The position numbers and the translations under genes were made by a program. A stretch of 34,064 nucleotides of DNA from a virus, in IMG/VR virus record IMGVR_UViG_3300042882_000311, positions 1 through 34,064 of that record, one strand, 5' to 3'. The notes under the pieces were generated by a model that worked only from the letters and a program-made list of their open reading frames with translations, was not told the origin of the DNA and searched no databases. Below are positions 8,834 to 34,064 of this stretch, piece by piece. The number at the start of each line of letters is the position of its first letter. Within the stretch, counting starts at the first letter, position 1.

Positions 8834-8983
8834 ATGTTGATTCTAAAACTTTTAAATGCAGATGATTTTTATTGCTGTGGCCCTAATATTGACATAGCAA
8901 AAGGAAAATACAAATTGGCGGAAACTTTCAAAGAAGGATTCAAACAGGTAAAAAGAGAATTGTATGCGAAAAGAGATAATTGA
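8834..8983 (+). CDS. Small conserved-looking protein, 49 aa
   Basis: This 49-residue ORF starts at an ATTATG three bases after the previous stop. It contains ADDFYCCGPNIDIAKGKYKL and ends in a charged helix. It overlaps the tape measure start by 20 bases, which supports a real, coupled gene rather than a chance ORF. The CCG motif is the only notable feature. Function unknown. Confidence 0.6.
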   Translation: MLILKLLNADDFYCCGPNIDIAKGKYKLAETFKEGFKQVKRELYAKRDN

Positions 8984-10892
8984 AATCGAAGCCAAAGTAG
9001 GCGAAGCAACTAAAGATATCAAAAAATTATTTGATACAATGGTTGCTGCCGAAAAAGAAGCACAAAAAAGTGGCGAAACATTAAATAAAAACGTAAAAGA
9101 TTTAGGGGAAACCTCAAAAAAATCTGCAAAAGGGGTTGAGGGCATATCAAAATCCGTTAAGGGTATTGGCAATGCAATGAAAGTTGCCGGGATTGGGATA
9201 ATAATTAGCTTATTCACCTCACTAAAAGAAGTGTTCACAAGCAATCAAAAGGTTGCCGATTTATTGGCAACAGTAATGGAAACTGTTTCTTTGGTGTTTA
9301 ATGAGTTTGCCAATGTTATAGTCGGTACATACGAAAAAGTAAGTAAGGCTACCGGCGGATTTGATGCTTTGGGTAAGGTTTTAATGGGTATTTTAAAGTT
9401 AGCGATAACGCCATTGAAATTAGGATTTTATGGAATTACGTTAGGTCTTCAAGAAGCTCAACTAATGTGGGAAAAGTCTTTTTTTGGGGACAAAGATCAG
9501 AATGTTATTAATCAACTAAACTCAGATATATTAAAAACTAAACTGGCGCTTTTAGCAACTGGTGAAGATGCGATAAAAGCCGGGAAAGATATTGCTTCTA
9601 ATATCGGTGAAGCTATTGGTGAAGTCGGCTCATTTGTTTCTGAGGCAATTGAAGGTGTTAGTAAAATAAGTATATCTGGAGCTTATGAAAACGCCAAAGC
9701 AATTGTCCAACTAAAAAAATCAGCGGAAATAGCAGCAGCAGTTCAAGCTGGGTTAGTTGAAGAAAACGACAGGCTGGCTGAAAAGCAAAGACAGATTCGG
9801 GATAACGATTTAAAAAGTATTGATGAGCGTAGAAAAGCAAATGAAGAATTATTAAAAATATTAAAGAAGCAAGAAAAAGATATGACTGCTCAGGCTAAAT
9901 TGCAAACAGCCGCAGCCGCAGCAGATTATAATAAAAACCAAAGCACCGAAAATTATGTCGCTTTAATCCAAGCCGAAAATAATGAGAAAGCAATCAAGGC
10001 TCAAATTGAAGGATTTTTAAGCGAGCAACAAGCTAACAAAATTGCACTTGATAAAGAAGAAATTGAGTTAATTAATTCTAAAAAAGAGGCGAATTCTAAT
10101 TTATCAATTCAAGAAAAGCAATTTGCGGCTGAGCAAGAATTGAATGAAGTAAAAAAATTACAAGCGTTAAGAACCGCTTTAGAAGAAGAAAAAGTTATTG
10201 AATTAGAAAGACTTCAAGCAAAAATAGATTCGTATGTAGAAGGAACACAATACCGTTTGGATGCGGAAAATGAGTACGCATTAAAAAAACAAGAAATAGA
10301 TCAAACGATATTAACAAACACAAAGGAAACAAATAAAGCAATAATTGAAGAAGATAAAGTGGTCGCCGAAGCAAAAGCCGCTATTATGCAATCACAACTT
10401 GACAACATAGCTGGTGGGTTTGCTTTATTAGGGCAACTTGCCGGAAAGAATAAAGCTCTACAAGCGGCCACCATAATCGGTGAAAATGCCGTTGGTATTG
10501 CCAAACAAATAATCGCCACACGCTCGGCCAATGCTTTGGTGACCGCAAAATATGCTTTACTCCCGGGCGGCGTTGCTTTAGCCGCAGCCGAGAAAGCTAT
10601 GAATAATGTTTCTTTAGGTATTGGTATTGCCACATCCGTAGCAGCTACAGCAAAAGCATTAAGCGCTTTAGGCAAAGGTGGAAGTGCCGGAGGTGGTTCA
10701 CAAAACTCAGGTGGTGGCGGTGCGGTTCAATCGCCTAGCTTTAATGTAGTCGGTCAAAGCGGAACGAATCAACTTGCACAAAGTATAGGCAATCAAGCGA
10801 CTAAACCAATCAAAGCTTATGTTGTCAGCAAAGAAATGTCCAGTCAACAAGAGCAAGATAGAAATACTCAGGAAACGGCCACTTTTGGTTAA
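8964..10892 (+). CDS. Tail tape measure protein
   Basis: The product has 642 residues. The N-terminal 70 are helical and charged. A hydrophobic VAGIGIIISLFTSL segment lies at 74-87, with further hydrophobic stretches near 90-180 and a long coiled coil rich in Glu, Lys and Gln (about 240-480). An Ala-rich hydrophobic region (490-570) and a Gly/Ser/Gln-rich C-terminus follow. This is the scaffold that sets tail length. At about 0.15 nm per residue the helix predicts a tail near 95 nm, consistent with a siphovirus. It lies six kilobases after the tail chaperone rather than directly downstream. Confidence 0.85.
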   Translation: MRKEIIEIEAKVGEATKDIKKLFDTMVAAEKEAQKSGETLNKNVKDLGETSKKSAKGVEGISKSVKGIGNAMKVAGIGIIISLFTSLKEVFTSNQKVADLLATVMETVSLVFNEFANVIVGTYEKVSKATGGFDALGKVLMGILKLAITPLKLGFYGITLGLQEAQLMWEKSFFGDKDQNVINQLNSDILKTKLALLATGEDAIKAGKDIASNIGEAIGEVGSFVSEAIEGVSKISISGAYENAKAIVQLKKSAEIAAAVQAGLVEENDRLAEKQRQIRDNDLKSIDERRKANEELLKILKKQEKDMTAQAKLQTAAAAADYNKNQSTENYVALIQAENNEKAIKAQIEGFLSEQQANKIALDKEEIELINSKKEANSNLSIQEKQFAAEQELNEVKKLQALRTALEEEKVIELERLQAKIDSYVEGTQYRLDAENEYALKKQEIDQTILTNTKETNKAIIEEDKVVAEAKAAIMQSQLDNIAGGFALLGQLAGKNKALQAATIIGENAVGIAKQIIATRSANALVTAKYALLPGGVALAAAEKAMNNVSLGIGIATSVAATAKALSALGKGGSAGGGSQNSGGGGAVQSPSFNVVGQSGTNQLAQSIGNQATKPIKAYVVSKEMSSQQEQDRNTQETATFG

Positions 10893-10939: not shown

Positions 10940-10980
10940 TTATGAGCAACGTAACTAATTTTCTTAACGGAAAGAAAAAA
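10940..10980 (+). repeat. 41-bp direct repeat, copy 1
   Basis: The 41 bases around the start codon and first codons of the 10942 gene recur exactly at 11395-11435. The match ends abruptly after a poly-A run. Confidence 0.95.
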
Positions 10981-11352
10981 TTAGAATTAGAATCTCAAAA
11001 AAAACAGAACCAAAAAATTTTTAAATTAGCATTGATTGATGACTTGACCAAATCCGTAGCCAAATCAAAGGAAGCTACACAAAGATTATTATCCTATGAA
11101 GTAAAGATAAAAGAAAGTACTGCAGCATTAAAAAAAGCGCAGGAAAATCATGACCTTAATCTTAGTGAAAATAAAATAGCACTTGAAGTAGCGATGGAAG
11201 CTGAAAAATTACATGGGCCTATATGGGAAAAAGTCCACGCAAGCGCAAAAGAGCTGGGAATAGAAACAGGAGCCATAAAAGGATATAATGAAGCATCAAA
11301 TCAAAATGAAGCATTATGGCGTTCAATTAAAAGAAATAGAGAATTCAAATAA
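10942..11352 (+). CDS. Paralogous small helical protein 1 (shared MSNVTNFLNGKKK leader)
   Basis: The product has 136 residues and begins with MSNVTNFLNGKKK, identical to the next gene at both protein and DNA level. A charged coiled coil fills the middle (about 20-100). The C-terminus, AKELGIETGAIKGYNEA, aligns with AKDLGINPDDIKGY of the next protein, so the pair shares both ends and differs in the middle. No family was recognised. Position between the tape measure and the head protease suggests a virion or assembly role. Confidence 0.7.
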   Translation: MSNVTNFLNGKKKLELESQKKQNQKIFKLALIDDLTKSVAKSKEATQRLLSYEVKIKESTAALKKAQENHDLNLSENKIALEVAMEAEKLHGPIWEKVHASAKELGIETGAIKGYNEASNQNEALWRSIKRNREFK

Positions 11353-11394
11353 ATGAAAGCAAACGAAAACAATCACAATTAAAAACAATTAAAA

Positions 11395-11435
11395 TTATGA
11401 GCAACGTAACTAATTTTCTTAACGGAAAGAAAAAA
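11395..11435 (+). repeat. 41-bp direct repeat, copy 2
   Basis: This is an exact copy of 10940-10980, again covering the start codon and leader of a gene. The two identical stretches are 455 bases apart, so recombination between them could delete the first gene while keeping the second in frame. Confidence 0.95.
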
Positions 11436-11666
11436 ATAGGATTGGCAAGTCAAAATGATTTATTCAAATTTGTGGACAAAATTACAACGGCACAATCACA
11501 AATAGATAAAGGAAGAGATGGGCTGAATTCCGTACTCCCTATGGCAGAAAAAGCTTTAACGGAAGTAGAAATGCAGGCTAAAGATTTAGGGATAAATCCA
11601 GATGATATTAAAGGTTATAAATCTTTAAAAATAGAAGTACAAAATACAAAAAGCAGTTATTTATAA
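11397..11666 (+). CDS. Paralogous small helical protein 2 (shared MSNVTNFLNGKKK leader)
   Basis: The product has 89 residues. It shares the first 13 residues exactly with the preceding protein and its C-terminal AKDLGINPDDIKGY motif approximately. The middle is shorter and unrelated in sequence, though also helical. The stop overlaps the protease start (TAATG), so it is translationally coupled to it. The shared leader may be a docking or localisation signal. Function unknown. Confidence 0.7.
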   Translation: MSNVTNFLNGKKKIGLASQNDLFKFVDKITTAQSQIDKGRDGLNSVLPMAEKALTEVEMQAKDLGINPDDIKGYKSLKIEVQNTKSSYL

Positions 11667-12253
11667 TGGAAATAATAGAACTTATACTAGACATTAACGA
11701 CAATATGAGCGGAATAGATGCTATTAGTGTAGTTGAAAGTCCGGCCATTGAAGTTGATTTTATTGCTTTGAGTTCGCAAAAAGTTGAGTTGGTTCAAGTT
11801 AATCCTGAAAAGCGTATTTTAATGGGCCCGGCATTGATACCAAACAAACATATTTTCAGAAAGGATAAAGCGAGAGAATACTATATTTTCTTTTCAAAGG
11901 AAACCGTAAATCTAGCATCCCAAATTTATCTGAAAAAATCAAAGCAGGCCAATGCAACTTTAGAACACGAAAGCAAATTAAAAGATATGACAGTCGTGGA
12001 AAGTTGGATAGTTGATAATCCAGAAATGGATAAATCCAAACACTATGGATTAAACGTTCCACAAGGTACTTGGATGGTATCAATGAAAGTTGATAACGAA
12101 AAAGTATGGACTGAGTTTGTGAAAACTGGGAAAGTAAAAGGCTTTTCTATTGAGGGTTATTTTGCGGATAAAGTGGAAATGAATAATCAGGAAGAATTAG
12201 AAGCTGAAAAAACATTAAGCAAGATTAAAAAAATAATTGAATATGGCATCTAA
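11666..12253 (+). CDS. XkdF-like putative head maturation protease
   Basis: The product has 195 residues and matches the XkdF-type putative phage serine protease pattern: VVESPAIEVDFIALSS, ILMGPALIPNKHIFR, TLEHESK (candidate catalytic His), TVVESWIVDNPEMDKS and GTWMVSMKVDN, then VKGFSIEGYF. It would trim scaffold and capsid proteins during prohead maturation. The catalytic Ser is probably in GFSIEGYF; this is inferred. The start is coupled to the previous gene. The capsid lies five kilobases further on, with fibre genes between, which is unusual. Confidence 0.75.
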   Translation: MEIIELILDINDNMSGIDAISVVESPAIEVDFIALSSQKVELVQVNPEKRILMGPALIPNKHIFRKDKAREYYIFFSKETVNLASQIYLKKSKQANATLEHESKLKDMTVVESWIVDNPEMDKSKHYGLNVPQGTWMVSMKVDNEKVWTEFVKTGKVKGFSIEGYFADKVEMNNQEELEAEKTLSKIKKIIEYGI

Positions 12254-12593
12254 TTATAAAATTCTTAACCAGTACAAAAATGACACTTTTGACGGTGTTA
12301 GATTTACGCTAAAAGACACAGATACATTGACGCCTATTTCTTTAGTTGATGCAACTATAAAGACACAATTTAGGTATAGAAGTGAAACTGGAAGAATAGT
12401 AAAGACAATCACAGAATTAGATGGTATTACGGTTGAAGATGCTGTCAATGGTATTTTTAAATTCAACCCTTTTGTTATAGATTGGGAAGCCGACATCTAT
12501 TACTATGATGTTCAAATAACTTTCTCGAATGAAGTCATAAAAACATATATCAAAGGAACTGTAAAAGTAATTCAAGATATTACCAATGGATAA
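12243..12593 (+). CDS. BppU-like immunoglobulin-type baseplate/virion module
   Basis: The product from the ATG at 12243 has 116 residues. The pattern NDTFDGVRFTLKDTDTLTPI, a hydrophobic beta core and YYYDVQITFSNEVIKTYIKG resembles the Ig-like N-terminal module of baseplate upper proteins. These small beta domains attach fibres to the virion. It overlaps the protease end by 11 bases and the next gene by eight. An in-frame TTG at 12237 would add two residues but has no better context. Confidence 0.55.
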   Translation: MASNYKILNQYKNDTFDGVRFTLKDTDTLTPISLVDATIKTQFRYRSETGRIVKTITELDGITVEDAVNGIFKFNPFVIDWEADIYYYDVQITFSNEVIKTYIKGTVKVIQDITNG

Positions 12594-12930
12594 TGTAACA
12601 ATAATAGTTGAAGATTTTACGCAAGATGTAACAATAATAGTTGAGGATTTTACGCAAGATGTAACCATTGAAGTTGGTGCTGGCGCGATTAAAGGTGATA
12701 AAGGTGATAAGGGAGATAAAGGTGATGTAGGTGCTGATGCTTTTTATTTACACGACAATCCAATGGCTTCAAGTTCTTGGCTGATAACTCATAACCTAAA
12801 TAAATATCCATCAGTCACAATAGTGGACACGGGTGGAAATGCTGTAATAGGGGAAATCAATTATATAAATTTAAACAGTTTGGAATTAACATTCAGCGCA
12901 TCTTTTTCAGGAAAAGCATATCTAAATTAA
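12586..12930 (+). CDS. Small fibre protein with collagen-like segment
   Basis: The product has 114 residues in three parts. It opens with two copies of VTIIVEDFTQ(D), from a 33-bp tandem repeat, then has a collagen-like GDKGDKGDKGDVG segment and a C-terminal domain with ITHNLNKYPSVTIVDTGGN and ASFSGKAYLN. The last domain is common in small Bacteroidota virion proteins. The collagen-like stretch suggests a trimeric shaft. It overlaps the preceding gene by eight bases. Confidence 0.7.
   Translation: MDNVTIIVEDFTQDVTIIVEDFTQDVTIEVGAGAIKGDKGDKGDKGDVGADAFYLHDNPMASSSWLITHNLNKYPSVTIVDTGGNAVIGEINYINLNSLELTFSASFSGKAYLN
12592..12657 (+). repeat. 33-bp tandem repeat in fibre gene
   Basis: Two 33-base copies (12592-12624 and 12625-12657) differ at two positions and encode 11 residues each. 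A partial third copy follows. This looks like a recent in-frame duplication in the fibre base. Confidence 0.9.
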
Positions 12931-12952
12931 TAATAAATAAAATCAAATAATT

Positions 12953-14101
12953 ATGAAAGTATTATCGAATCTAGACCTAAATAAAAATCAATTATTACAG
13001 GTGGTATTACAAGTTCTAGCCAGCGCACCAACATCGCCGGTAGAAGGTCAAATGTATTATAACAGCACTGACCAAACTGCCTATATCAGAAAATCATCAG
13101 CTTGGTTAGATCTGGGGGCGGTATCATCTGGCGCTGATGGATTAGGACCTGATGGAGATAAAGGTGACATCACTGTAGGCGGTACCGGGACGACATTGAC
13201 TATTGATGTAGATGCTGTGACATACGCCAAAATGCAAAATGTAACGACGGCGAATACGATGCTAGGTTCTTTAAGTGCTGGTGGTATAATTACGGAACTC
13301 ACGAAGTCACAAATATTGACATTGATTAACGTATTAGACGGAGCTGATGTCACTAATTCCACAAATGTAAATTCAGCCGGAGCAACAATGAATAGTGATA
13401 CCACATTGGCTGGAAATGGATATTTTTTAGATGACGATACAATGGCTGGAAATGATGCCACGAAAACAGTATCTCAACAATCATTGGTGGCTTATGTAGC
13501 GAGTTCAATAGCGACGGCATTAAGTAGTGGAATGACATATAAAGGAGGCTATAATGCGTCGACAAATACACCTTTATTAGACGCCACACCTATCGCCACC
13601 GCTATTGGTGATACATATACCGTGACGGTTGCTGGTACATTTTTTACAGTTCCCGTTTCTATTGGAGATGTTATTATTTGTGAATCCGTAAATGCAACCA
13701 CTGAAGCTCAATGGACGATAGTAGAGAAAAACATACCTGATATCGTTTCGGCAAGTGAAACCGCACAAGGTATTATTGAACTCGCTACACAAACAGAAGT
13801 TAATACCGGAACGGATACAGTAAGAGCAATCACACCAGCGACATTGAAGAGCAATCTAGGAGTCACTGCGACATTAAATAGTGCCTTACGATTCACTCAA
13901 CAGATAGGAAATGCGGTAGCCACGAATATTGTGGTGACTCATAATATAGGCAGACAATTTGTAACTGCTCAAGTTTTTGAAACGGCCTCACCTTATGCTC
14001 AGGTGGAATGTGATATTGAATGTGATACAGTAAACGCAACGAGTTTCACTTTCAATGTAGCTCCTTCATCAAATCAATATACGGTGATAATAGTAGGATA
14101 A
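12953..14101 (+). CDS. Tail fibre protein
   Basis: The product has 382 residues. The N-terminus (LSNLDLNKNQLLQVVLQ, then SPVEGQMYYNSTDQTAYIRK) is the attachment module seen on many Bacteroidota phage fibres. A long Thr/Ala/Val-rich shaft follows, including GIIELATQTEVNTGTDTVRA, a recognisable fibre repeat motif. The C-terminal 80 residues (TQQIGNAVATNIVVTHNIGR) form a beta domain likely to bind the receptor or cap the trimer. Host range role is inferred. Confidence 0.75.
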   Translation: MKVLSNLDLNKNQLLQVVLQVLASAPTSPVEGQMYYNSTDQTAYIRKSSAWLDLGAVSSGADGLGPDGDKGDITVGGTGTTLTIDVDAVTYAKMQNVTTANTMLGSLSAGGIITELTKSQILTLINVLDGADVTNSTNVNSAGATMNSDTTLAGNGYFLDDDTMAGNDATKTVSQQSLVAYVASSIATALSSGMTYKGGYNASTNTPLLDATPIATAIGDTYTVTVAGTFFTVPVSIGDVIICESVNATTEAQWTIVEKNIPDIVSASETAQGIIELATQTEVNTGTDTVRAITPATLKSNLGVTATLNSALRFTQQIGNAVATNIVVTHNIGRQFVTAQVFETASPYAQVECDIECDTVNATSFTFNVAPSSNQYTVIIVG

Positions 14102-14111
14102 AAATAAAATT

Positions 14112-14867
14112 ATGAGTAAAAGTTTTAAATCAGATGTAATTGTAAATGGTATTATAACCGCTGATAATGTGAGCGGTACCAATACAGGTGACAATGCCGT
14201 AAATACTCTATATAGTGGACTTGTTTCAAACGCAACTCATACTGGAGACGTAACAGGTTCTACCGCTTTAACGATTGGAGCAAACAAAGTTCTGACAAGC
14301 CATATCTTAGATGCGAATGTCACTTTAGCTAAGATGGCAAACGTAGCAACAGGAACAATATTTTACAGAAAAACAGCATTGGCGGGAGTACCAGAAGTAC
14401 AGACATTGGCTACCTTAAAAACTGATTTAGGACTTACAGGAACAAATTCAGGAGATAATTCTGCCAATACTCTTTACAGCGGATTAGTAACTAATGCAAC
14501 CCATACTGGAGAGGTTACTGGAGCAACGGCTTTAACGATAGCGAGTGGGGTAGTTGATATTGACAACCTTGCAGTAGAACTGAAAGCCACCACAGCTCTT
14601 GGGAACGTATCTGGAACAGTGAATATTAACTGGGCATTGGGCATTCAATATAATTTAACAATGACTGGAGCTACAACCCTGACGTTTTCAAATATGATGC
14701 AAGGAAAAACGATAACTTTAATCGTGACTGGAAATTATACTTTGACTTTTCCAGCGAGTGTAAAAGGTGATAAAACTGGTTTTGTTGGTACAAAAACCAA
14801 TCAAGTACAATTATATTGCTTTGACAGTACAACGCCACAATGTTCAATAGGTATTTTAAACTGGTAA
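14112..14867 (+). CDS. Tail fibre protein with duplicated repeat
   Basis: The product has 251 residues. It contains two related blocks, GDNAVNTLYSGLVSNATHTG (coding from about 14181) and GDNSANTLYSGLVTNATHTG (from about 14445), each followed by VTGxTALTI. The C-terminal 80 residues carry MTGATTLTFSNMMQGKTITL, a domain found in phage fibre and appendage proteins. It starts 11 bases after the previous fibre gene. This is probably a distal part of the same appendage. Confidence 0.7.
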   Translation: MSKSFKSDVIVNGIITADNVSGTNTGDNAVNTLYSGLVSNATHTGDVTGSTALTIGANKVLTSHILDANVTLAKMANVATGTIFYRKTALAGVPEVQTLATLKTDLGLTGTNSGDNSANTLYSGLVTNATHTGEVTGATALTIASGVVDIDNLAVELKATTALGNVSGTVNINWALGIQYNLTMTGATTLTFSNMMQGKTITLIVTGNYTLTFPASVKGDKTGFVGTKTNQVQLYCFDSTTPQCSIGILNW

Positions 14868-14871
14868 AATT

Positions 14872-15570
14872 ATGATATTTGGAAATAGTCAATTAATGAA
14901 AGCGTCTGTACCTACTGGCCCAATAGAGATAGTCAGTTATAGCGTTTTAAGTGCCACCCCATACCCTGTAGAATGCTGGATTGCATATCCTCCAAATATC
15001 GTGAATGGAGATTTAATACTGCTATTCATTGCAGATGCAAATGACACAAGTACTGACAGTTGGAATGAAGCAAATATGGATGATACTGCTGGCTGGGTTA
15101 AGATTCAAGGCTATGCGAGTTCGGTTTATGATACTGGAATGGCTATATTTTATAGAATCGCTGACAGTAATGAATCTAACAGGTATTTAACGATAACACC
15201 TACAGGGCAATATGAAATGACGGCATATTTGGTACACGTTAAAAATGCAAGTCCTACAGACCCAATCAGCACTGTAGGAACTGTAGAGAAAGCAGGCTCA
15301 AATACCATAACACCAACTGGATATACAGGCGTAGTTGGCGATATGAGTTTTGTCCTTGGCTCGTTTGATGGAGGTGATGGACACTCATTGACAGTCACTG
15401 GAACTGGCTGGACTTTATTGTCAGCAAACAGAAGTGGAACGAGTAGCATTTCGTCCACCTCAAATTGTGTCGGAAGTATATTACATACAGGCACAGCTGG
15501 AGTTAATGTAACGCTTGGAGCATCAGTATCGGATGGATTCGTAGGGATTCAAATAAGAATAAAAAAATAA
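14872..15570 (+). CDS. Beta-rich virion/fibre-tip protein
   Basis: The product has 232 residues, dominated by Gly, Ser and Thr with alternating hydrophobic residues. DLILLFIADANDTS and AGWVKIQGYASSVYDTGMAI suggest a jelly-roll-like domain. It follows two fibre genes with only five bases of spacing, so it is a candidate receptor-binding tip. I do not recognise a named family. Confidence 0.6.
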   Translation: MIFGNSQLMKASVPTGPIEIVSYSVLSATPYPVECWIAYPPNIVNGDLILLFIADANDTSTDSWNEANMDDTAGWVKIQGYASSVYDTGMAIFYRIADSNESNRYLTITPTGQYEMTAYLVHVKNASPTDPISTVGTVEKAGSNTITPTGYTGVVGDMSFVLGSFDGGDGHSLTVTGTGWTLLSANRSGTSSISSTSNCVGSILHTGTAGVNVTLGASVSDGFVGIQIRIKK

Positions 15571-15575
15571 AAATT

Positions 15576-16070
15576 ATGAAAGCAATATTAATAAACAACC
15601 AAATTCAATATTTTCAGAATTTCACAACTTTTGAAAATGCAGTCAATGTACAAAGTGCAACTGAACAACAAATCTACGATTGGGGATTTAGAGATGTAGT
15701 GGTTCCAATAATTACAGATTCGCAAATTATAGGCGAAATGTATTTTAATAAAGACAATGATGTTTGGACTTATAAAGTTATTGATAAAACTCCTAAAGAA
15801 ATAGAGGCGGAGAATATAGCAATAAAAAAGGATGAAAGAAATACATTATTAAGAAAAGGTATAATTGTAGATGGCGTCTGGTTTAACGAAGAATATCTTG
15901 GAAATTTTACAAGCGCAATCACATTGAAAGAAAAATCAGGAAGCCAAACTATTTTCTGGAAAGACGATTTAGATGTTTGGATTGAATTAAGTATATCAGA
16001 TGCTTATATTTTAGCGAATAAGGCGATGATGGAATTGCAAAAAATTTATTTGAATGATTTGAAAATATAA
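15576..16070 (+). CDS. Putative tail fibre assembly / appendage protein
   Basis: The product has 164 residues, starting MKAILINNQIQYFQNFTTFE. The C-terminal half is helical (LANKAMMELQKIY), preceded by GVWFNEEYLGN and TIFWKDDLDVWIELS. This arrangement of a beta half and a small helical end following fibres recalls tail-fibre assembly chaperones, which are encoded directly after their clients. Assignment is by position and general shape only. Confidence 0.45.
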   Translation: MKAILINNQIQYFQNFTTFENAVNVQSATEQQIYDWGFRDVVVPIITDSQIIGEMYFNKDNDVWTYKVIDKTPKEIEAENIAIKKDERNTLLRKGIIVDGVWFNEEYLGNFTSAITLKEKSGSQTIFWKDDLDVWIELSISDAYILANKAMMELQKIYLNDLKI

Positions 16071-16112: not shown

Positions 16113-16664
16113 ATGAGTAAAAAAACAGTTTTATCACAAATCAAGACTTTATTAAATATCGAGGTAAAACTTGAACAGATGAAGTTAGACAATGGAACGG
16201 TTATTGAGTCCGATTCATTTGAACCTGGTTATGAAGTATTCGTTCTATCTGGAGAGGATAAAATTCCTTTGCCAATAGGTGAATATACGCTAGAAGATGC
16301 AAGAATTTTGACCGTTGTAGAAGATGGTATGATTGCTGAGATTAAAGATGCAGAAGCAGAAGAAACTCCGCCAGCAACTCCGCCAGCACCAGCTGAAGTT
16401 CCGGTAGATGCACAAGCGTCAACTTCAACACCTAAAAAAATAATTGAATCAGTGAGCAAAGAATTGTTCTTTGAGGAAATTAAGAAGTTGTCGGACCAAA
16501 TTGCAGAATTAAAATTTGCAAAAGTAGAGCCAGCTGAAATTGTTTTATCAGCTGTAGAAGTTGTTGAACCGTTAATTCACAACCCAGAAAAGCTATCAAA
16601 ACAAAAGACTACTTTTTACAAAAAAGAGTCAATGGTTGAATTTTTAAACAATAGAAAAAAGTAG
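16113..16664 (+). CDS. Scaffold-like head assembly protein
   Basis: The product has 183 residues. It begins with a basic helix, then VKLEQMKLDNGTVIESDSFE and IPLPIGEYTLEDARILTVVE, a small beta domain found next to capsid genes in Bacteroidota phages. A Pro/Ala/Glu-rich linker (about 88-112) and a coiled coil (FFEEIKKLSDQIAELKF) follow. Position before the decoration and capsid genes fits a scaffold or assembly protein that the XkdF-like protease would remove. That function is inferred. Confidence 0.6.
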   Translation: MSKKTVLSQIKTLLNIEVKLEQMKLDNGTVIESDSFEPGYEVFVLSGEDKIPLPIGEYTLEDARILTVVEDGMIAEIKDAEAEETPPATPPAPAEVPVDAQASTSTPKKIIESVSKELFFEEIKKLSDQIAELKFAKVEPAEIVLSAVEVVEPLIHNPEKLSKQKTTFYKKESMVEFLNNRKK

Positions 16665-17111: not shown

Positions 17112-18038
17112 ATGGCAACAGACATCACGATTAGCTCCAATTATGCCGGGAAGGACGCTGGAGAGATTATAGGTAAAGCGTTCAAAGATGCTGATACTAT
17201 TTCAAAAAATTTAGTCACAGTTTTACCGGATATTGATTTTCAGGTATCACTTAGAAAAATCAGTTACACAGATGGTAGAGTAGATTATTCTTGTGGTTTT
17301 ACACCATCGGGAGCGGTAACGCTTTCTGAAAAGCTTTTAACTCCTAAAAAGTTAAAAATCGAACTTGAAATTTGTAAAGAAGATTTAAAACAAATTTGGT
17401 CTTCAGCATCTATGGGATTTTCAGCTCATAATGACAGTATGCCAGCTGATGTTGAAACAGCCTTATTAGCTGAAATTTTAGCGGACACAGCCGAAGCGAC
17501 TGAATTGGATATTTGGAGTGGCGTTGCAGCTACATCCGGAAGTTTTGGTGGATTCATTCCATTATTTACTGCTGATGCAAATATTATAAAAGCTGGATCG
17601 GGCATTACTTCCGCTTCTGCAGCAGTTACAAAATCAAATGTAATTGCCGAAGTTGAGAAAGTTATCAATGCTATTCCGGTTGAAATGCTAAGAAAATCAG
17701 ATTTGATTTTTGGTGTTTCAAGTAACATCGCAGTTGCTTACCAACAAGCATTAATTTCGGCTGGTGTCTCTAACGGTTTCGGCGGCGCTGATATGATGTT
17801 GAATTATGGTAATTTTAAAATGGAAGTTATCAACGGTTTACCGGCAAATACTTTTGTTGTTTACCAACGTAAAAACCTTTATTTTGGAACTGGTCTTTTA
17901 GCTGACCATAACGATATTCGCATTAAAGATATGGATGAATCTGATTTGAGTGGACAGGTTAGATATAAAATGGTTTATACTGCTGGCGTTCAATATGTGA
18001 ATAGTGAAGAAATTGTTTGGTATTTAACAACTACATAA
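17112..18038 (+). CDS. Major capsid protein
   Basis: The product has 308 residues. The N-terminal KDAGEIIGKAFKDADTISKN, the central KKLKIELEICKEDLKQIW strand-helix region, and the C-terminal GLPANTFVVYQRKNLYFGTG and MVYTAGVQYVNSEEIVWYL fit a HK97-type capsid of Bacteroidota siphoviruses. It forms the icosahedral head. A strong hairpin terminator follows, and a 36-base AT-rich leader with no recognised promoter precedes it, so it may share the fibre operon transcript. The gene is 15 kb from the terminase. Confidence 0.8.
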   Translation: MATDITISSNYAGKDAGEIIGKAFKDADTISKNLVTVLPDIDFQVSLRKISYTDGRVDYSCGFTPSGAVTLSEKLLTPKKLKIELEICKEDLKQIWSSASMGFSAHNDSMPADVETALLAEILADTAEATELDIWSGVAATSGSFGGFIPLFTADANIIKAGSGITSASAAVTKSNVIAEVEKVINAIPVEMLRKSDLIFGVSSNIAVAYQQALISAGVSNGFGGADMMLNYGNFKMEVINGLPANTFVVYQRKNLYFGTGLLADHNDIRIKDMDESDLSGQVRYKMVYTAGVQYVNSEEIVWYLTTT

Positions 18039-18736: not shown

Positions 18737-19057
18737 ATGATTATATTAAAACCTTTAGAAACAGCTCAAGTACTGAAATTTATAGGTAGGCAAAATGTGG
18801 GCACTCATTTGATTTTAAGAGATGAGCAAGATAATACGGAAATTCAAATCGATAGCGATTATGTAGTTGATGGGCAATACTTAAAAACCACAACCATATT
18901 TGATTTACAGGAAAATAGATTTTATAATTTAACAGTTTATAATTCTACGGAAATAATATATCGGGATAAGTTATTTTGTACGTCTCAAACGAACTATTCT
19001 ATAAATAATGGGGCTTATACCCAAAACGAATCTAACAACGATTATATCACTTTATAA
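18737..19057 (+). CDS. Conserved small virion-associated protein
   Basis: The product has 106 residues with a beta pattern: GTHLILRDEQDNTEIQIDSD, YLKTTTIFDLQENRFYNLTV and IIYRDKLFCTSQ. I associate this pattern with a small protein encoded directly before the portal in Bacteroidota phages. Its stop overlaps the portal start (TAATG), so the two are coupled. Function unknown. Confidence 0.6.
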   Translation: MIILKPLETAQVLKFIGRQNVGTHLILRDEQDNTEIQIDSDYVVDGQYLKTTTIFDLQENRFYNLTVYNSTEIIYRDKLFCTSQTNYSINNGAYTQNESNNDYITL

Positions 19058-20817
19058 TGGCAAACGAAGACAAAACAATCTATGTTACTTCACTGAGTAA
19101 ATACACAACTCCTGAAATTCTGGAAGTAAGGAATAAGGAGTGGGTTGAATACGGAAGTGATAATAATTACTTTCAGTATTTAATCGACAGATTTACAGGC
19201 TCAACAACCAACAATGCTATCATAAATGGAATTGTGAAAATGATTTATGGCAAAGGGTTATCGGCAACGAATGGAAGTAAAAAACCGGAAGCTTACGCTC
19301 AGGCGCTTTCACTATTTAAAAAACCTGATTTAAGGAAGTTTATAACTGACAGAAAAATGTTGGGAATGTCGGCTTTTCAATTAAGCTATAAGTCTAAAAA
19401 AATCGAAATGGTAACTCATTTTCCTATGAATACTTTAAGGCCAGAAAAGATGAATGATAAAGGTAAAATTGAGGCTTGGTATTACCATCCTAATTGGGCT
19501 AAAAGAAAGGCGAGTGATGAAACTGAACGCATTCCGGCATTTGGGTTTGGCAATAAAACAGGGAACGAGATTTATGTTATGAGCCCTTATGTTGCCGGAT
19601 ATGATTATTTTAGCCCAGTTGATTATGTTGGATGTTTACCTTATGCTGTACTCGAAGAAGAAATTAGCGATTATTTGATAAATGACGTTAGGAACGGTTT
19701 TAGCGGTACCAAAATTATAAACTTTAATAATGGTGTGCCTGATGAAGAAAAAATGAAGGCCATCACCAAAGATGTAAATAGGAAAACAACTGGCTCAAAT
19801 GGATTAAAAACCATTGTCTCTTTTAATGCAAATATTGAAAGCAAAACCACTATTGATGATGTTCCGTTAAATGATGCGCCAGCGCATTATCAATATCTTT
19901 CTGATGAGTGTAGAGATAAATTGATTGTAGGTCATAGGGTTACTTCTCCGATGCTTTTAGGAGTTCGAGAAACAGGTGGCGGATTGGGAAATAATGCCGA
20001 CGAAATCAAAACAGCTAATTTACTTTTCGATAATGTAGTCATAAATACTTTTCAAGAAGAAATCATAGATGCTATTGATGAGATTTTACTCGTAAATGAT
20101 ATTAGCTTAAACCTTTATTTTAAAACAATAGAACCGCTAGAATTTATCGATACAACAGGAATGGACAAGGAAACCAAAGAAGAAGAAACAGGCGTTAAAA
20201 TGAGCGCAGAAGTTGATTTGCTAGATTCATACGGTGAAGCTTTAAACCCAAAATGGGAACTGATAGATGAAAGGGAAGTTGATTATGAATTAGAAGCCGA
20301 ATTAGATGCTGAAATAGAATTAAAAAACAACCCGCCAAAATCTATTCTTTCTCAAATATGGAATTTAGTAAGTACTGGGACAGCGAATCCAAACGCAAAA
20401 AGTGGACAAGATGCAATCATTGACGGAAAGCGGTATTTTGTACGATATGAATACACTGGAAGTTTAACACCACAAAGAGAATTTTGTAAAAAAATGATGT
20501 CGGCTAACAAGTTATATAGAAAAGAAGATATAACTCGTATGTCTTCAAATGTAGTTAATGCCGGATGGGGTCCTAAAGGCGCTGATAATTACGATATATT
20601 TCTGTATAAAGGTGGCGGAGATTGTCATCATAAATGGGTTAGAAAAACATTTAAAACAGATGGGAAAGTTGATGTAAACAACCCAAACGCTCCAACAATT
20701 TCAACCAACAAAGCTGATAAAGAAGGTTATAGAATCAGAAACCCTAAGGAAGTTTCAATGATGCCTAAAGATATGCCTTATAATGGATTTTTACCAACTA
20801 ATAAAAGATTTAACTAA
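19057..20817 (+). CDS. Portal protein with MuF-like C-terminal domain
   Basis: The product has 586 residues. The first 400 have the portal pattern: EWVEYGSDNNYFQYLIDRFT, IINGIVKMIYGKGL, then the YLSDECRDKLIVGHRVTSPM region and GGGLGNNADEIKTANLLFDN. The C-terminal 150 residues are separate: DGKRYFVRYEYTGSLTPQRE, FCKKMMSANKLYRKEDITRM, GWGPKGADNYDIFLYKGGGD and CHHKWVRKTF resemble the conserved end of MuF/SPP1 gp7-like minor head proteins. The fusion would link connector and internal protein. It is coupled to both neighbours by TAATG overlaps. Confidence 0.8.
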   Translation: MANEDKTIYVTSLSKYTTPEILEVRNKEWVEYGSDNNYFQYLIDRFTGSTTNNAIINGIVKMIYGKGLSATNGSKKPEAYAQALSLFKKPDLRKFITDRKMLGMSAFQLSYKSKKIEMVTHFPMNTLRPEKMNDKGKIEAWYYHPNWAKRKASDETERIPAFGFGNKTGNEIYVMSPYVAGYDYFSPVDYVGCLPYAVLEEEISDYLINDVRNGFSGTKIINFNNGVPDEEKMKAITKDVNRKTTGSNGLKTIVSFNANIESKTTIDDVPLNDAPAHYQYLSDECRDKLIVGHRVTSPMLLGVRETGGGLGNNADEIKTANLLFDNVVINTFQEEIIDAIDEILLVNDISLNLYFKTIEPLEFIDTTGMDKETKEEETGVKMSAEVDLLDSYGEALNPKWELIDEREVDYELEAELDAEIELKNNPPKSILSQIWNLVSTGTANPNAKSGQDAIIDGKRYFVRYEYTGSLTPQREFCKKMMSANKLYRKEDITRMSSNVVNAGWGPKGADNYDIFLYKGGGDCHHKWVRKTFKTDGKVDVNNPNAPTISTNKADKEGYRIRNPKEVSMMPKDMPYNGFLPTNKRFN

Positions 20818-25239: not shown

Positions 25240-25348
25240 AGAAATGGAAAAGCACTCCAGCACGATCCTGGATCCTGAGTTTTTATTCGAGATGAACCGG
25301 AGGTACCGGGAACTCCAGGACCAAGTAAAAAAAGACATAAACTTATGA
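25217..25348 (+). CDS. Small helical protein, 43 aa
   Basis: A 43-residue ORF (MNGQQQLKEMEKHSSTILDP), charged and helical. It overlaps the HTH gene by 23 bases and the PP-loop gene by ATGA, so it is likely translated in a coupled series. Function unknown. Confidence 0.55.
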   Translation: MNGQQQLKEMEKHSSTILDPEFLFEMNRRYRELQDQVKKDINL

Positions 25349-26223
25349 TAACAGTAAACAGCATAAGCGGAGGGAAAACATCAGCCTATGTCGCAAAAGA
25401 ATACCCATCAGATCATAACGTTTTTGCATTAATTACAACCGACAGTATTAATTGTAAATACCCAGACAAAAAGATTAGACAAATCGTTTCTGATAAAATA
25501 GGCAAGGAATTTATAGGGACTTTAGAAGATGATATTATCATAAATACCATTATAGATTTAGAGCAATTTATAGGATCAAAAATAGATTGGGTAGCAGGTA
25601 AAACATTTGATGAGGTAATTACAAGAGGGAAAAGAACGGATGGCAAAACTGCAATTTATTTGCCTAACCCAACTATGAGATTCTGTACAACAGAAATGAA
25701 ATTAAAGCCAATTTTTGAATGGTGGCAAAAAACAATTAATGAACCTGCAATATTCAATATTGGATTTAGAGCAAATGAGCAAAGACGAGCTAAAAATATG
25801 CTTGATAAAACAAATGAAAATGGACTTAGTGAATTTAAAGCAATTATTGGTCAGTCAAAAAACGGAAGAAATAAATGGAAAAATATAGGATGGCAAAAGC
25901 CAGAATTTCCTTTAATTAAAGATAAAATTTTTAAAGATAATATCATTGAATATTGGAAAGATAAGCCTGTGAGATTTGCAAACCATAATAATTGTATCGG
26001 ATGCTTCCATAGAGAATTGCATTTTTTAAAATATATGGCAGATAAACACCCTATAAAATTCCAATGGTTTATTGATATGGAAATACAATCAAGAGAAACT
26101 TATAATGACAGAAGCTGGAATTTAAGCATCAGCTATGAAAAAATAAAAAAATATTCTTTTCAAGAAACGATGTTTAAAGATGAAGATTTTAATGATTGTG
26201 ATACAGGATATTGTGGATATTAA
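25345..26223 (+). CDS. PP-loop / PAPS-reductase-like enzyme
   Basis: The product has 292 residues. The PP-loop SGGKTS (8-13) binds ATP for adenylation. LPNPTMRFCTTEMKLKPIFE is typical of the phage PAPS-reductase-like group. Two more Cys clusters (NNCIGCFHRE; CDTGYCGY at the end) may bind metal or an iron-sulphur centre. The family covers sulphur transfer and nucleotide or DNA modification; this member's substrate is unknown. It probably does not reduce PAPS for biosynthesis in a phage. Coupled to the preceding ORF by ATGA. Confidence 0.75.
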   Translation: MITVNSISGGKTSAYVAKEYPSDHNVFALITTDSINCKYPDKKIRQIVSDKIGKEFIGTLEDDIIINTIIDLEQFIGSKIDWVAGKTFDEVITRGKRTDGKTAIYLPNPTMRFCTTEMKLKPIFEWWQKTINEPAIFNIGFRANEQRRAKNMLDKTNENGLSEFKAIIGQSKNGRNKWKNIGWQKPEFPLIKDKIFKDNIIEYWKDKPVRFANHNNCIGCFHRELHFLKYMADKHPIKFQWFIDMEIQSRETYNDRSWNLSISYEKIKKYSFQETMFKDEDFNDCDTGYCGY

Positions 26224-26296: not shown

Positions 26297-26953
26297 ATGA
26301 AAAAAACAAACATTTATCAAAAGCTACTGGTTATCCAGAAAGCAGTCAAAGGCCTTAAAAAGGACAAAAAAGGTAACAACTACGACTACGTGACCGGGAA
26401 CAAATTATTATCATTCGTGAAACCTTTAATGGATGAGCAAAGCCTTATTTTAAAACAGGAAGTCCTAAGCATCGACAACCAGAGAATGGACTACCACACA
26501 GGAGTAGGGACACAATACGAGAAACCCAAATCGGAAATCTTATCCAAAGTAATGATGCGTTTCACTTGGGTTGATTGCGAAACAGGCGAAATGGATGAAA
26601 ATTTATTCGGAGCCAACGGCCAAAACGAATGGGAAAAAGGACTTGGATCCGCACTTACTTATGCCGAAAGATATTTTATTTTAAAATATTTTCACATTGC
26701 AACCGATGAGGATGACATCGACAACCCGGACCGCAAACCAGAAAAGACAGAGACAAAAGATGCAGAGCCAAAACAATACGCCAATGCCGAGCCAAAGAAG
26801 ATACCAGCTCCAAAAAGACTAACCCCAGAGCAGGTGAAACTGATACCAACATCAGAGGAGCTAAAAAGTCTGCTTGTGGTTTTGGCAAACTACACGCTGA
26901 CAACGGAGGAAAAAAGTATGATCGACAAACGCATCAACGAATTAAAGAAATGA
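26297..26953 (+). CDS. erf: ERF-family single-strand annealing protein
   Basis: The product has 218 residues. The ERF-type core covers about 1-140: YQKLLVIQKAVKGLKKDKKG, YVTGNKLLSFVKPLMDEQ, then GLGSALTYAERYFILKYFHI. It anneals complementary single strands in recombination and repair. A Lys/Glu/Pro linker (about 145-180) separates a short helical C-terminus. It opens a recombination block that continues through Gp157 and NinG. Confidence 0.85.
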   Translation: MKKTNIYQKLLVIQKAVKGLKKDKKGNNYDYVTGNKLLSFVKPLMDEQSLILKQEVLSIDNQRMDYHTGVGTQYEKPKSEILSKVMMRFTWVDCETGEMDENLFGANGQNEWEKGLGSALTYAERYFILKYFHIATDEDDIDNPDRKPEKTETKDAEPKQYANAEPKKIPAPKRLTPEQVKLIPTSEELKSLLVVLANYTLTTEEKSMIDKRINELKK

Positions 26954-29146: not shown

Positions 29147-30322
29147 ATGAAATACATCGAAAAAACAAATGTAATATTAAACGATAAATATACTGAATAT
29201 ATTTATGAAGCGTTTGATATTCAAAACAAAGAAAGTACAAGTGTTAAAATTCCTATTAATTTTGGAGAATGTAAAACATTCGATTGGAATATAGGTGTGA
29301 TTTATGGTGGTTCAGGAACTGGTAAAACTACATTATTAAAAGAATTTGGTGATTTAACTCCATCTGTTTTTGATATGAAAAAACCATTAATTAGTAATTT
29401 TGATTGGTTAGAACCAAAAGAAGCTACATTTTTATTATCTGCTATGGGGCTTGCTTCTGTCCCAACTTGGTTAAGACCGTTTGCTGCATTATCAAACGGA
29501 GAACAATATCGAGCAGAACTCGCTTACAAAGTCGCTAAAGCAAAAGACGGCGATACTATTTTAATTGATGAGTATACGTCAGTAGTTGACAGAGATGTTG
29601 CTAAAGCAATGTCTAACGCATTACAAAAATATATCAGGAGAAACAATAAAAGAATAATTTTATCATCTTGTCATTTCGATATTATGGAATGGTTGTTACC
29701 AGATTGGACTTACTCACCATTGAAAGGTCGTGTAGAAAAGCACGACTATCGAAGGCAAAGCCGCCCAAAAATTGAGCTATCGGTATTTCGATGTAGATAT
29801 GAAACTTGGAAAATATTCAAACAATATCATTATTTAACTGAAGATCTAAATAAGGCTTGTATTTGTTATGTGACTACAATAAATGATAAACCGGTTTGTT
29901 TTAATGCTGTTTTGCCTTTTCCTCACGGTAATATAAAAAACGGTTATAGAATGTCAAGGATAGTAGTACTTCCTGATTATCAAGGTTTAGGCGTTGGCGG
30001 TAAGATAACCGATTACATCGCATCCTTGTATGCTAAGAAAGGTAGAACGATGTATGTCAAAACATCAAACCCAGCTTTGTGGGCTCATCTGGATAAATCA
30101 CCAAATTGGCATTTAACTACAGAAGTGACAAAAGAACAATTAAATTCTGAATGGATGGAAAAAATGCAAACTGCTGATAAATCAGGTATGTTGAAATACA
30201 GGAACGCAATTACAAAATCTTATAAATGGATTGGTGAAAAATCGCAAGACGATACTGATATAATTTTATTTAAAAATGAAGTTTACAAACACGTTGCTCA
30301 AAATCAAATATCAATGTTTTAA
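29147..30322 (+). CDS. ABC-ATPase fused to GNAT (Mom-like) domain
   Basis: The product has 391 residues. Residues 1-200 are a soluble ABC-type ATPase: Walker A GGSGTGKTT (54-62), signature LSNGEQYRAELA (115-126), Walker B DTILIDEYTS (136-145) and switch His in SSCH (176). Residues 210-370 are a GNAT fold, with RIVVLPDYQGLGVGGK (271-286) as the cofactor loop. ABC-GNAT fusions occur in phages and resemble the GNAT-fold Mu Mom adenine-modifying protein; the substrate here is inferred. It ends in QNQISMF, a sliding-clamp-binding type motif. Element A sits directly upstream. Confidence 0.8.
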   Translation: MKYIEKTNVILNDKYTEYIYEAFDIQNKESTSVKIPINFGECKTFDWNIGVIYGGSGTGKTTLLKEFGDLTPSVFDMKKPLISNFDWLEPKEATFLLSAMGLASVPTWLRPFAALSNGEQYRAELAYKVAKAKDGDTILIDEYTSVVDRDVAKAMSNALQKYIRRNNKRIILSSCHFDIMEWLLPDWTYSPLKGRVEKHDYRRQSRPKIELSVFRCRYETWKIFKQYHYLTEDLNKACICYVTTINDKPVCFNAVLPFPHGNIKNGYRMSRIVVLPDYQGLGVGGKITDYIASLYAKKGRTMYVKTSNPALWAHLDKSPNWHLTTEVTKEQLNSEWMEKMQTADKSGMLKYRNAITKSYKWIGEKSQDDTDIILFKNEVYKHVAQNQISMF

Positions 30323-33829: not shown

Positions 33830-34064
33830 ATGCTGAAAGACATCGCTAAATATCACAAGGAATGGATCAAAATGGTTAAATCAATGGGCGGCGGTGATTA
33901 CTCGGAAGATGTGGTACAGGAAATGTACATAAAAATTAATAAATACGCCACTCCTGATAAAATTTATGTAAATGGAAAAATTAATAAATTTTATATTTAT
34001 TTGACTTTACGTTCAATTACTTTCCAAGAATTCAGGAACAAAGAAAACATCAAAAAGGAATCAA
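33830..34064 (+). CDS. Sigma-70-like factor, N-terminal part
   Basis: This is the 5' part of the gene that continues at 1-417 (position 33938 equals position 1). The first 36 codons, MLKDIAKYHKEWIKMVKSMG and GGDYSEDVVQEMYIKI, carry the sigma region 2 pattern (acidic ED-VQE helix). Full length is 174 residues. The ATG at 33830 is chosen because region 2 begins right behind it. An internal ATG at codon 15 would remove part of that helix. Confidence 0.8.
   Translation, partial: MLKDIAKYHKEWIKMVKSMGGGDYSEDVVQEMYIKINKYATPDKIYVNGKINKFYIYLTLRSITFQEFRNKENIKKES
33938..34064. repeat. Terminal direct repeat, right copy
   Basis: Identical to 1-127. See the left copy for interpretation. Genes in the overlap are counted once in a circular map. 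Confidence 0.95.

Follow-up and report, generated by a model that had tools for sequence, protein, structure and literature searches.

A leader shared by two adjacent phage genes resembles the C-terminal end of the phage's own scaffold protein and may mark exchangeable internal head proteins

The stretch of DNA analysed here, which we call the window, is a virus record of 34,064 bases that begins and ends with the same 127 bases (an exact direct repeat, 1-127 and 33938-34064). Because its ends overlap in this way, the record is probably a whole genome that was assembled as a circle. Two adjacent genes, referred to as gene 1 and gene 2, open with the same 41 bases. This identical start region had been pointed out in a preliminary description of the DNA, and it is indeed an exact repeat, with 10940-10980 equal to 11395-11435. 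The features on which the analysis relies are as follows (a slash within a motif marks a candidate cut).

1086-2315, terminase (Pfam Terminase_3)
8964-10892, + strand, tape-measure-like gene, upstream of gene 1
10940-10980, + strand, leader copy 1, in gene 1 (exact repeat; 2 bases and codons 1-13)
10942-11352, + strand, gene 1, 136 aa, predicted internal head (cargo) protein (open reading frame, C-terminal profile)
11395-11435, + strand, leader copy 2, at the start of gene 2 (exact repeat)
11397-11666, + strand, gene 2, 89 aa, predicted internal head (cargo) protein (C-terminal profile, relative in locus L119)
11666-12253, + strand, XkdF-type prohead protease (Peptidase_S78_2, Pfam PF14550)
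12243-16070, fibre-like gene block between protease and scaffold
16113-16664, + strand, predicted scaffold protein gene, 183 aa (position, composition, relatives)
16158-16178, + strand, scaffold N-terminal motif IEVKL/EQ, possible processing site
16626-16661, + strand, last 12 codons of the scaffold gene, ESMVEFLNNRKK, the peptide that the leader resembles
17112-18038, + strand, major capsid protein, HK97 fold (AlphaFold2 and Foldseek)
19057-20817, + strand, portal protein (phrog_33693, E 3e-102)

The repeat spans 2 bases 5' of the ATG and codons 1-13 (MSNVTNFLNGKKK) of both open reading frames. Leaving aside the 127-base overlap of the contig ends, the longest other exact repeat in the window has 20 bases, and in 50 third-order Markov sequences no repeat exceeded 19 bases; 41 bases is far beyond chance. 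The middles of the two proteins had been described as unlike and their C-termini as similar, and BLASTP and MAFFT agree: the N-termini are identical, the C-termini similar (AK[ED]LGI....IKGY), and the middles align only with large gaps. The likeness extends a few residues beyond the leader (L.LxSQ). In the AlphaFold2 model of gene 2 the leader has low confidence and is followed by helices at residues 16-64 and 74-88, so that the confident helix is modelled to begin at residue 16, the predicted cut. A fold search with this model found nothing (best E 2.3).

Assembly error, which had been named as a possible source of the identity, is ruled out, as the two copies have different flanks and several relatives (L024, L091, L153, L186 and L188) also have tandem paralogues that begin with a common leader. 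The preliminary description had offered selection on the leader or recent conversion as explanations. Selection on the leader is supported, and for conversion or duplication there is a weak sign: paralogous leaders of relatives use differing codons at 20 of 83 identical residues, compared with 0 of 12 in the window (P about 0.04). Since the relatives' leaders are conserved as peptides while their codons change, and no such change is seen here, the 41 identical bases likely reflect constraint on the peptide combined with a recent duplication or conversion.

Genes 1 and 2 are placed between the tape-measure-like gene and the protease gene, whose product matches PF14550 with an E-value of 6.9e-14 and 52.4 bits, above the curated cut-off of 24. 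In relatives, the tape-measure-like gene lies 12-197 bases upstream of the protease with no gene between them (70/80 loci with enough upstream sequence), and the pair is therefore an insertion at this place in this phage. The scaffold gene was assigned because it precedes the capsid gene and encodes a protein with an acidic middle, a basic end and, in an alignment of 20 relatives, a conserved C-terminus; there is also a weak match to the family that contains the P12024S protease-scaffold protein, phrog_24921. The AlphaFold2 model of the capsid protein has a pLDDT of 71, and Foldseek places phage capsid proteins and encapsulins at the top of its matches (best E 6.9e-12). Among cultured phages, Nonlabens phage P12024S/L, whose host is a flavobacterium, has the head genes nearest to those of the window. 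Within the fibre-like block, one gene has collagen-like GDKGDKGD repeats and a 33-base tandem duplication (12593-12658); the interval between protease and scaffold is shorter and variable in relatives, which marks it as an insertion hot spot.

Searches with the two window proteins did not lead to relatives directly. A tblastn search of 50,697 phage records gave one chance match (E 1) for one protein and none for the other, and back-translated scans of viral contigs with the window proteins, including one with a two-sequence alignment, found no relative. Relatives were reached through the protease neighbourhood, using 80 viral contigs with a related protease. A search with a C-terminal pattern revealed them on the opposite side of the protease; MTTEKLVNNALFG and MNTQKEVFNKLFKEE are examples of their leaders, behind which stands KTELATQKVELA. 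A pattern search of viral contigs with the N-terminal motif added further members, for a total of at least 109 distinct proteins. Among the matches listed, 112 open reading frames in 210 loci were reduced to 109 by leaving out L201, which is lipoprotein-like, and L028 and L146, which missed the stricter motif. As the 109 relatives were selected by the N-terminal motif, its conservation among them is not evidence; the C-terminal profile, the leader-scaffold comparison and the swap tests described below are independent of this selection, although the swap alignment is anchored by the motif. The pattern search of genome contigs gave 10 matches, which is about chance level (~7 expected by our own estimate from the information content of the pattern).

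The resulting family, drawn from uncultured relatives, consists of at least 109 small helical proteins with an N-terminal leader, a short motif, a variable body and a conserved C-terminal end. Their bodies fall into 39 sequence clusters among the 109 proteins (among the matches listed). Fifty-five members share a locus with a scaffold gene: in 40 cases the member ends 4-70 bases ahead of the scaffold gene, and in 10 it is located about 2.5 kb beyond the start of that gene. The largest array seen comprises three tandem cargo genes with like leaders on the reverse strand of L186, at about 1278-2384. A tblastn search of the GenBank phage collection with five members found no phage with a family gene, and a profile search of P12024S found no cargo gene. 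Neither Pfam nor PHROG gave a convincing match for the window genes or their relatives, and a PADLOC search for defence families gave weak matches for two of eight proteins, none of them convincing.

The window genes are tied to this family by a profile built on the C-terminal 60 residues of the 109 relatives and on none of the window sequences. It picks out exactly two of the 256 open reading frames in the window, gene 2 (E 3e-9, rank 1) and gene 1 (E 2.2e-4, rank 2), the next having an E-value of 0.57. The body of gene 2 is 55% identical over 78 residues to a relative at 1312-1608 in L119 that stands behind a different leader; the alignment begins at the motif (KKIGLASQ in gene 2, QKIELATQ in L119), and the leaders upstream of it do not align. 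Consistent with this, the profile of the relatives' leaders fails on the window leader, with gene 2 at E 1.4 and gene 1 absent from the list, while the best window match of their leader/motif profile is the protease (E 0.005). As the C-terminal profile matches and the leader profile fails, the window genes combine a body and C-terminal end of the family with a leader of their own.

A cargo search was also run over 40 records, mostly longer than 20 kb, with a profile that contained the window genes, so that the window's own matches in it are circular. Among the 17 protease-selected records (those numbered L003-L073), 6 have a real cargo match and 11 have none, and hence either the function is dispensable or some of the records are fragments. 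The match in G011 and the second match in G008 lie in frames of tape-measure size and were not counted as cargo.

The preliminary description had speculated that the leader is a shared docking signal for head assembly, and the main finding of this work supports it at the level of sequence. When the window leader SNVTNFLNGKKK is compared with all 12-mers of the other open reading frames in the window, the one ranked first of 16,960 is ESMVEFLNNRKK, residues 172-183 and thus the exact C-terminal end of the 183-residue scaffold. The two peptides have 5 identities in 12 positions, and their DNA has no further likeness beyond these residues; 16 of 200,000 shuffled leaders reach the same score against ESMVEFLNNRKK. 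Likeness between scaffold C-terminus and leader had first been spotted by eye (in L121: ...TTTDRVFNKLFNN and MSPETKKVFTKLFKEN) and was tested afterwards. The match is particular to the lineage: the window leader scores 30 on the scaffold ends of the window and L003, 28 on that of L001 and 14 on the next, and against the scaffold end of the window none of 74 leaders from relatives scores above 18, compared with the 30 of the window leader.

The relation holds across the family. For 56 leader/scaffold pairs, the window included, the score is 21.05 on the phage's own scaffold C-terminus and 17.53 on those of others, a difference reached in 0 of 5000 permutations. The scaffold N-terminus, used as a control for the same pairs, gives no signal (3224 of 5000 permutations), and the idea that the leader is a homologue of the scaffold N-terminus was rejected on this ground. 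As most pairs fall in one broad lineage, a further test drew a single pair from each of seven scaffold lineages; in 10 such draws, 2-20 of 2000 permutations reached the observed value for the C-terminus and 163-1244 for the N-terminal control. When the C-termini of all open reading frames of at least 100 aa in a locus are compared, that of the scaffold ranks first for 43 of 51 cargo genes (7.4 expected), and for 32 of 39 when only distinct leaders are considered (5.6 expected). There are also leaders that do not follow the rule: for 15 of 56, the TPEALKILNTFQ and NTLQNVYNKLSD types notable among them, the scaffold C-terminus is not the best match within the phage's own scaffold. In a reverse scan of 958 open reading frames in scaffold loci, six uncatalogued N-termini match the scaffold end with a score of at least 24, and four of these six are further family members by sequence; among catalogued members, 15 of 57 reach that score. 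The rule is specific rather than sensitive. A similar proposal, that the protease C-terminus copies the N-terminus of the scaffold, reached only rank 5 of 10,605 and is not claimed. We found no account in the open-licence papers searched of a cargo leader that mimics the scaffold tail.

Leaders and bodies follow different histories. Over 55 genes, leader similarity tracks scaffold similarity (Mantel r 0.56, 0/2000 permutations), body similarity hardly does so (r 0.11, 2/2000), and leader and body are nearly independent of each other (r 0.10, 8/2000). In most loci it is the body, and not the leader, that is closer to the scaffold gene, and linkage would therefore predict the opposite pattern. 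Of 99 pairs with nearly the same leader, 83 have unlike bodies. The change is sharp at the motif: in 240 pairs that share a leader but not a body, identity is 81-99% before the motif and drops to about 10% within a few residues after it, and in 18 pairs that share a body but not a leader, identity is 6-44% before the motif and mostly 50-100% after it. Some of these exchanges are younger than the divergence of the head genes, since between L171 and L197 the body has a dS of 0.77, the scaffold one of 1.98 and the capsid protein one of 1.83. Where it could be measured, pairwise dN/dS of the bodies is 0.09-0.49, with no positive selection seen; this purifying selection indicates that the bodies are working proteins. 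Homologues without the leader had been proposed as grounds for abandoning the signal. Such homologues do exist, with other leaders, and the pattern in which each lineage has its own leader supports a signal. An Erf-like single-strand annealing protein is encoded at 26297-26953 (phrog_2324, E 1.5e-30) and could be the agent of short-homology cassette exchange.

A processing signal had also been suggested, and it is supported less strongly, by a recurrent site of the form [VIT][EDKNQ]L/[AES]. The motif [VIT][EDKNQ]L[AES] stands directly behind the leader in relatives. Every one of the 19 non-redundant scaffolds has it in its N-terminal part, where 2.2 are expected from shuffles, compared with 3-7% in three control stretches. 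It is also found in 4 of 18 capsid N-termini, which is the number of distinct extended ones. An extended N-terminus distinguishes five of the 113 capsid proteins (L026, L029, L071, L072 and L091), and all five have V[NED]L right before the usual start residue (MSKLKNVEL/ATTTN compared with M/ATTTS), which points to a cut after the leucine and suggests a maturation cut of the capsid protein in these lineages only. In the protease segment between PAIE and the catalytic domain, the strict motif occurs in 6 of 21 cases and looser forms are seen; it was not found in that segment of the window protease, whose N-terminal part has LSSQKVEL (residues 35-42), resembling the cargo motif. Proteases of about 300 aa in L111, L152, L164 and L190 end in the motif (like SELKNQKVELA) followed by a cargo body. 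The C-terminal profile search recovered the fusions of L152, L164 and L190 and also L128, which is probably another. Such fusions may be a second route by which cargo enters the head, with the same kind of site. The motifs of the window genes depart from TEL/VEL (here the slash separates two forms), and the cut is predicted after L16 in both, at LEL/ESQ in gene 1 (codon 16 at 10987-10989) and IGL/ASQ in gene 2 (codon 16 at 11442-11444).

We consider it probable that the leader is a docking peptide modelled on the scaffold tail and cut off by the XkdF-type protease, leaving internal head proteins whose bodies are swapped as cassettes. Genes 1 and 2 would encode accessory internal head proteins, or cargo, and their leader of 13 residues would imitate the peptide, presumably coat-binding, in which the phage's own scaffold ends, so that the docked cargo would be built into the prohead amid the scaffold molecules. 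During maturation the protease would cut behind the leader (LEL/E in gene 1, IGL/A in gene 2), and the helical body would then be free within the head. Recombination at the boundary of leader and motif would swap cargo bodies between phages, and the leader would remain with the head module because it must fit the capsid of that phage. Coat-protein binding, packaging, the docking partner, the cut and the fate of the cargo are what we infer from sequence. That the cargo is ejected into the host and serves there in takeover or counter-defence is a guess by analogy with T4 and P1, and exchange of bodies between phages fits roles in host interaction.

Other explanations account for part of these observations. 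The proteins might be auxiliary assembly factors that dock like the scaffold, shape or time prohead assembly and are then cut up and lost, with nothing delivered to the host. The leader-scaffold data apply equally to such factors, and the common C-terminal end and purifying selection (dN/dS 0.09-0.49) are what a constant role would give. Their 39 body clusters among 109 proteins (among the matches listed), the swapping of bodies between phages with differing head modules, which is unlike a factor tied to its capsid, and the failure to find the bodies in many relatives all speak against this explanation, and we regard it as unlikely.

Even less can be said for the view that the leader is only a recombination anchor, a short homology for cassette exchange by an annealing protein with no role as a protein. 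The exact 41-bp identity, the Erf-like protein at 26297-26953 and the position of the swaps at the leader boundary would all fit. An anchor of this kind would not predict a match to the scaffold C-terminus of the same phage, however, nor leaders that are conserved as protein in relatives while their codons differ (20 of 83 identical residues), and we think this view very improbable. We give no more credence to the N-terminus being a protease substrate tag whose likeness to the scaffold C-terminus is incidental. The motif does recur in the scaffold, the protease and some capsid proteins, but the stretch that matches the scaffold lies upstream of it, and the match to the C-terminus holds across seven scaffold lineages where the N-terminal control fails.

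Our preferred reading, a removable docking leader on exchangeable cargo, has counterparts among known systems. Encapsulins, which are among the Foldseek structural matches of the window capsid model, use a short terminal peptide to dock cargo to a shell of HK97 fold; they are not known to involve a scaffold, a protease or DNA.

One close counterpart is phage T4, whose internal proteins are described, in the portion of the source used here, as having targeting propeptides of 10-19 residues that are removed by the prohead protease (PMC9026906). According to a second excerpted account, T4 Ip1-3 share only the leader and each inhibits a different GmrSD restriction enzyme (PMC12373910). The genes of the window resemble T4 IPI-III with their capsid targeting sequence (CTS), as far as the excerpts describe it, in having a short N-terminal leader common to otherwise unlike small proteins, which are head proteins in T4 and are predicted to be so here. 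Lengths are also comparable, with 13 identical residues in the leader and a predicted propeptide of 16, and likewise in relatives; and, as with the T4 internal proteins, these are variable accessory genes present in one to several copies per phage (up to three in L186). Unlike T4, the phage has a genome of 34 kb, an XkdF-type protease and a [VIT]xL/A-like site. Its leader differs in sequence from the CTS and imitates the scaffold C-terminus, its helical bodies have a common C-terminal end, and cleavage and packaging are predictions. It would thus work like the T4 CTS without detectable homology and is not a member of that group by sequence.

In phage P22, the C-terminal helix-turn-helix of the scaffold is reported, in the part of the source consulted, as the coat-binding part in which basic residues are important, and proteins fused to a truncated scaffold that retains this C-terminus become encapsidated (PMC9962691). 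Those fusions are man-made and have the peptide at the C-terminus, whereas here separate natural genes bear a similar peptide at the N-terminus, ahead of a possible cut site; the comparison is functional, and homology is not claimed. By analogy, the natural arrangement would act like a P22 cargo fusion with a removable tag. In phage P1, the relevant passages describe an N-terminal signal of DarB, of which 30 residues suffice, that directs the protein into the head; DarB is a large single protein, and these passages mention no scaffold mimicry (PMC9024508). In SPN3US, a giant myophage with another protease and motif, the prohead protease is described in the extract as removing N-terminal propeptides from several head and ejected proteins, several of them longer than 100 residues (PMC10052503).

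Internal ejected proteins are known from large phages (T4, P1 and SPN3US). If the leader copies the scaffold tail, packaged proteins could be recognised by sequence alone, a docking site on the coat would be predicted, and a natural removable tag for loading capsids would become available. The exchange of cargo behind lineage-specific leaders also yields a list of proteins that might be injected as effectors by these phages, with 39 body clusters among at least 109 proteins. We put forward tentatively, as a serious possibility that falls well short of the confidence given to the leader itself, that the small siphophage-like viruses of this group have a general cargo-loading system. Helical effectors with a scaffold-tail leader and cut site, or fused to the protease, would be traded as cassettes and injected early, probably against host defences, convergent with the T4 internal proteins, and the cargo of such a phage would be readable from its genome by comparing N-termini with the C-terminal end of the scaffold.

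Two further genes of the window may be recorded here. A gene at 25345-26223 is phosphoadenosine phosphosulfate reductase-like (phrog_424, E 5.4e-26), and 29147-30322 encodes a protein of 391 aa that matches phrog_11143 (E 2.1e-134), with weaker matches to ABC-ATPase and acetyltransferase families; P12024S carries a gene annotated with an ATPase plus a GNAT domain.
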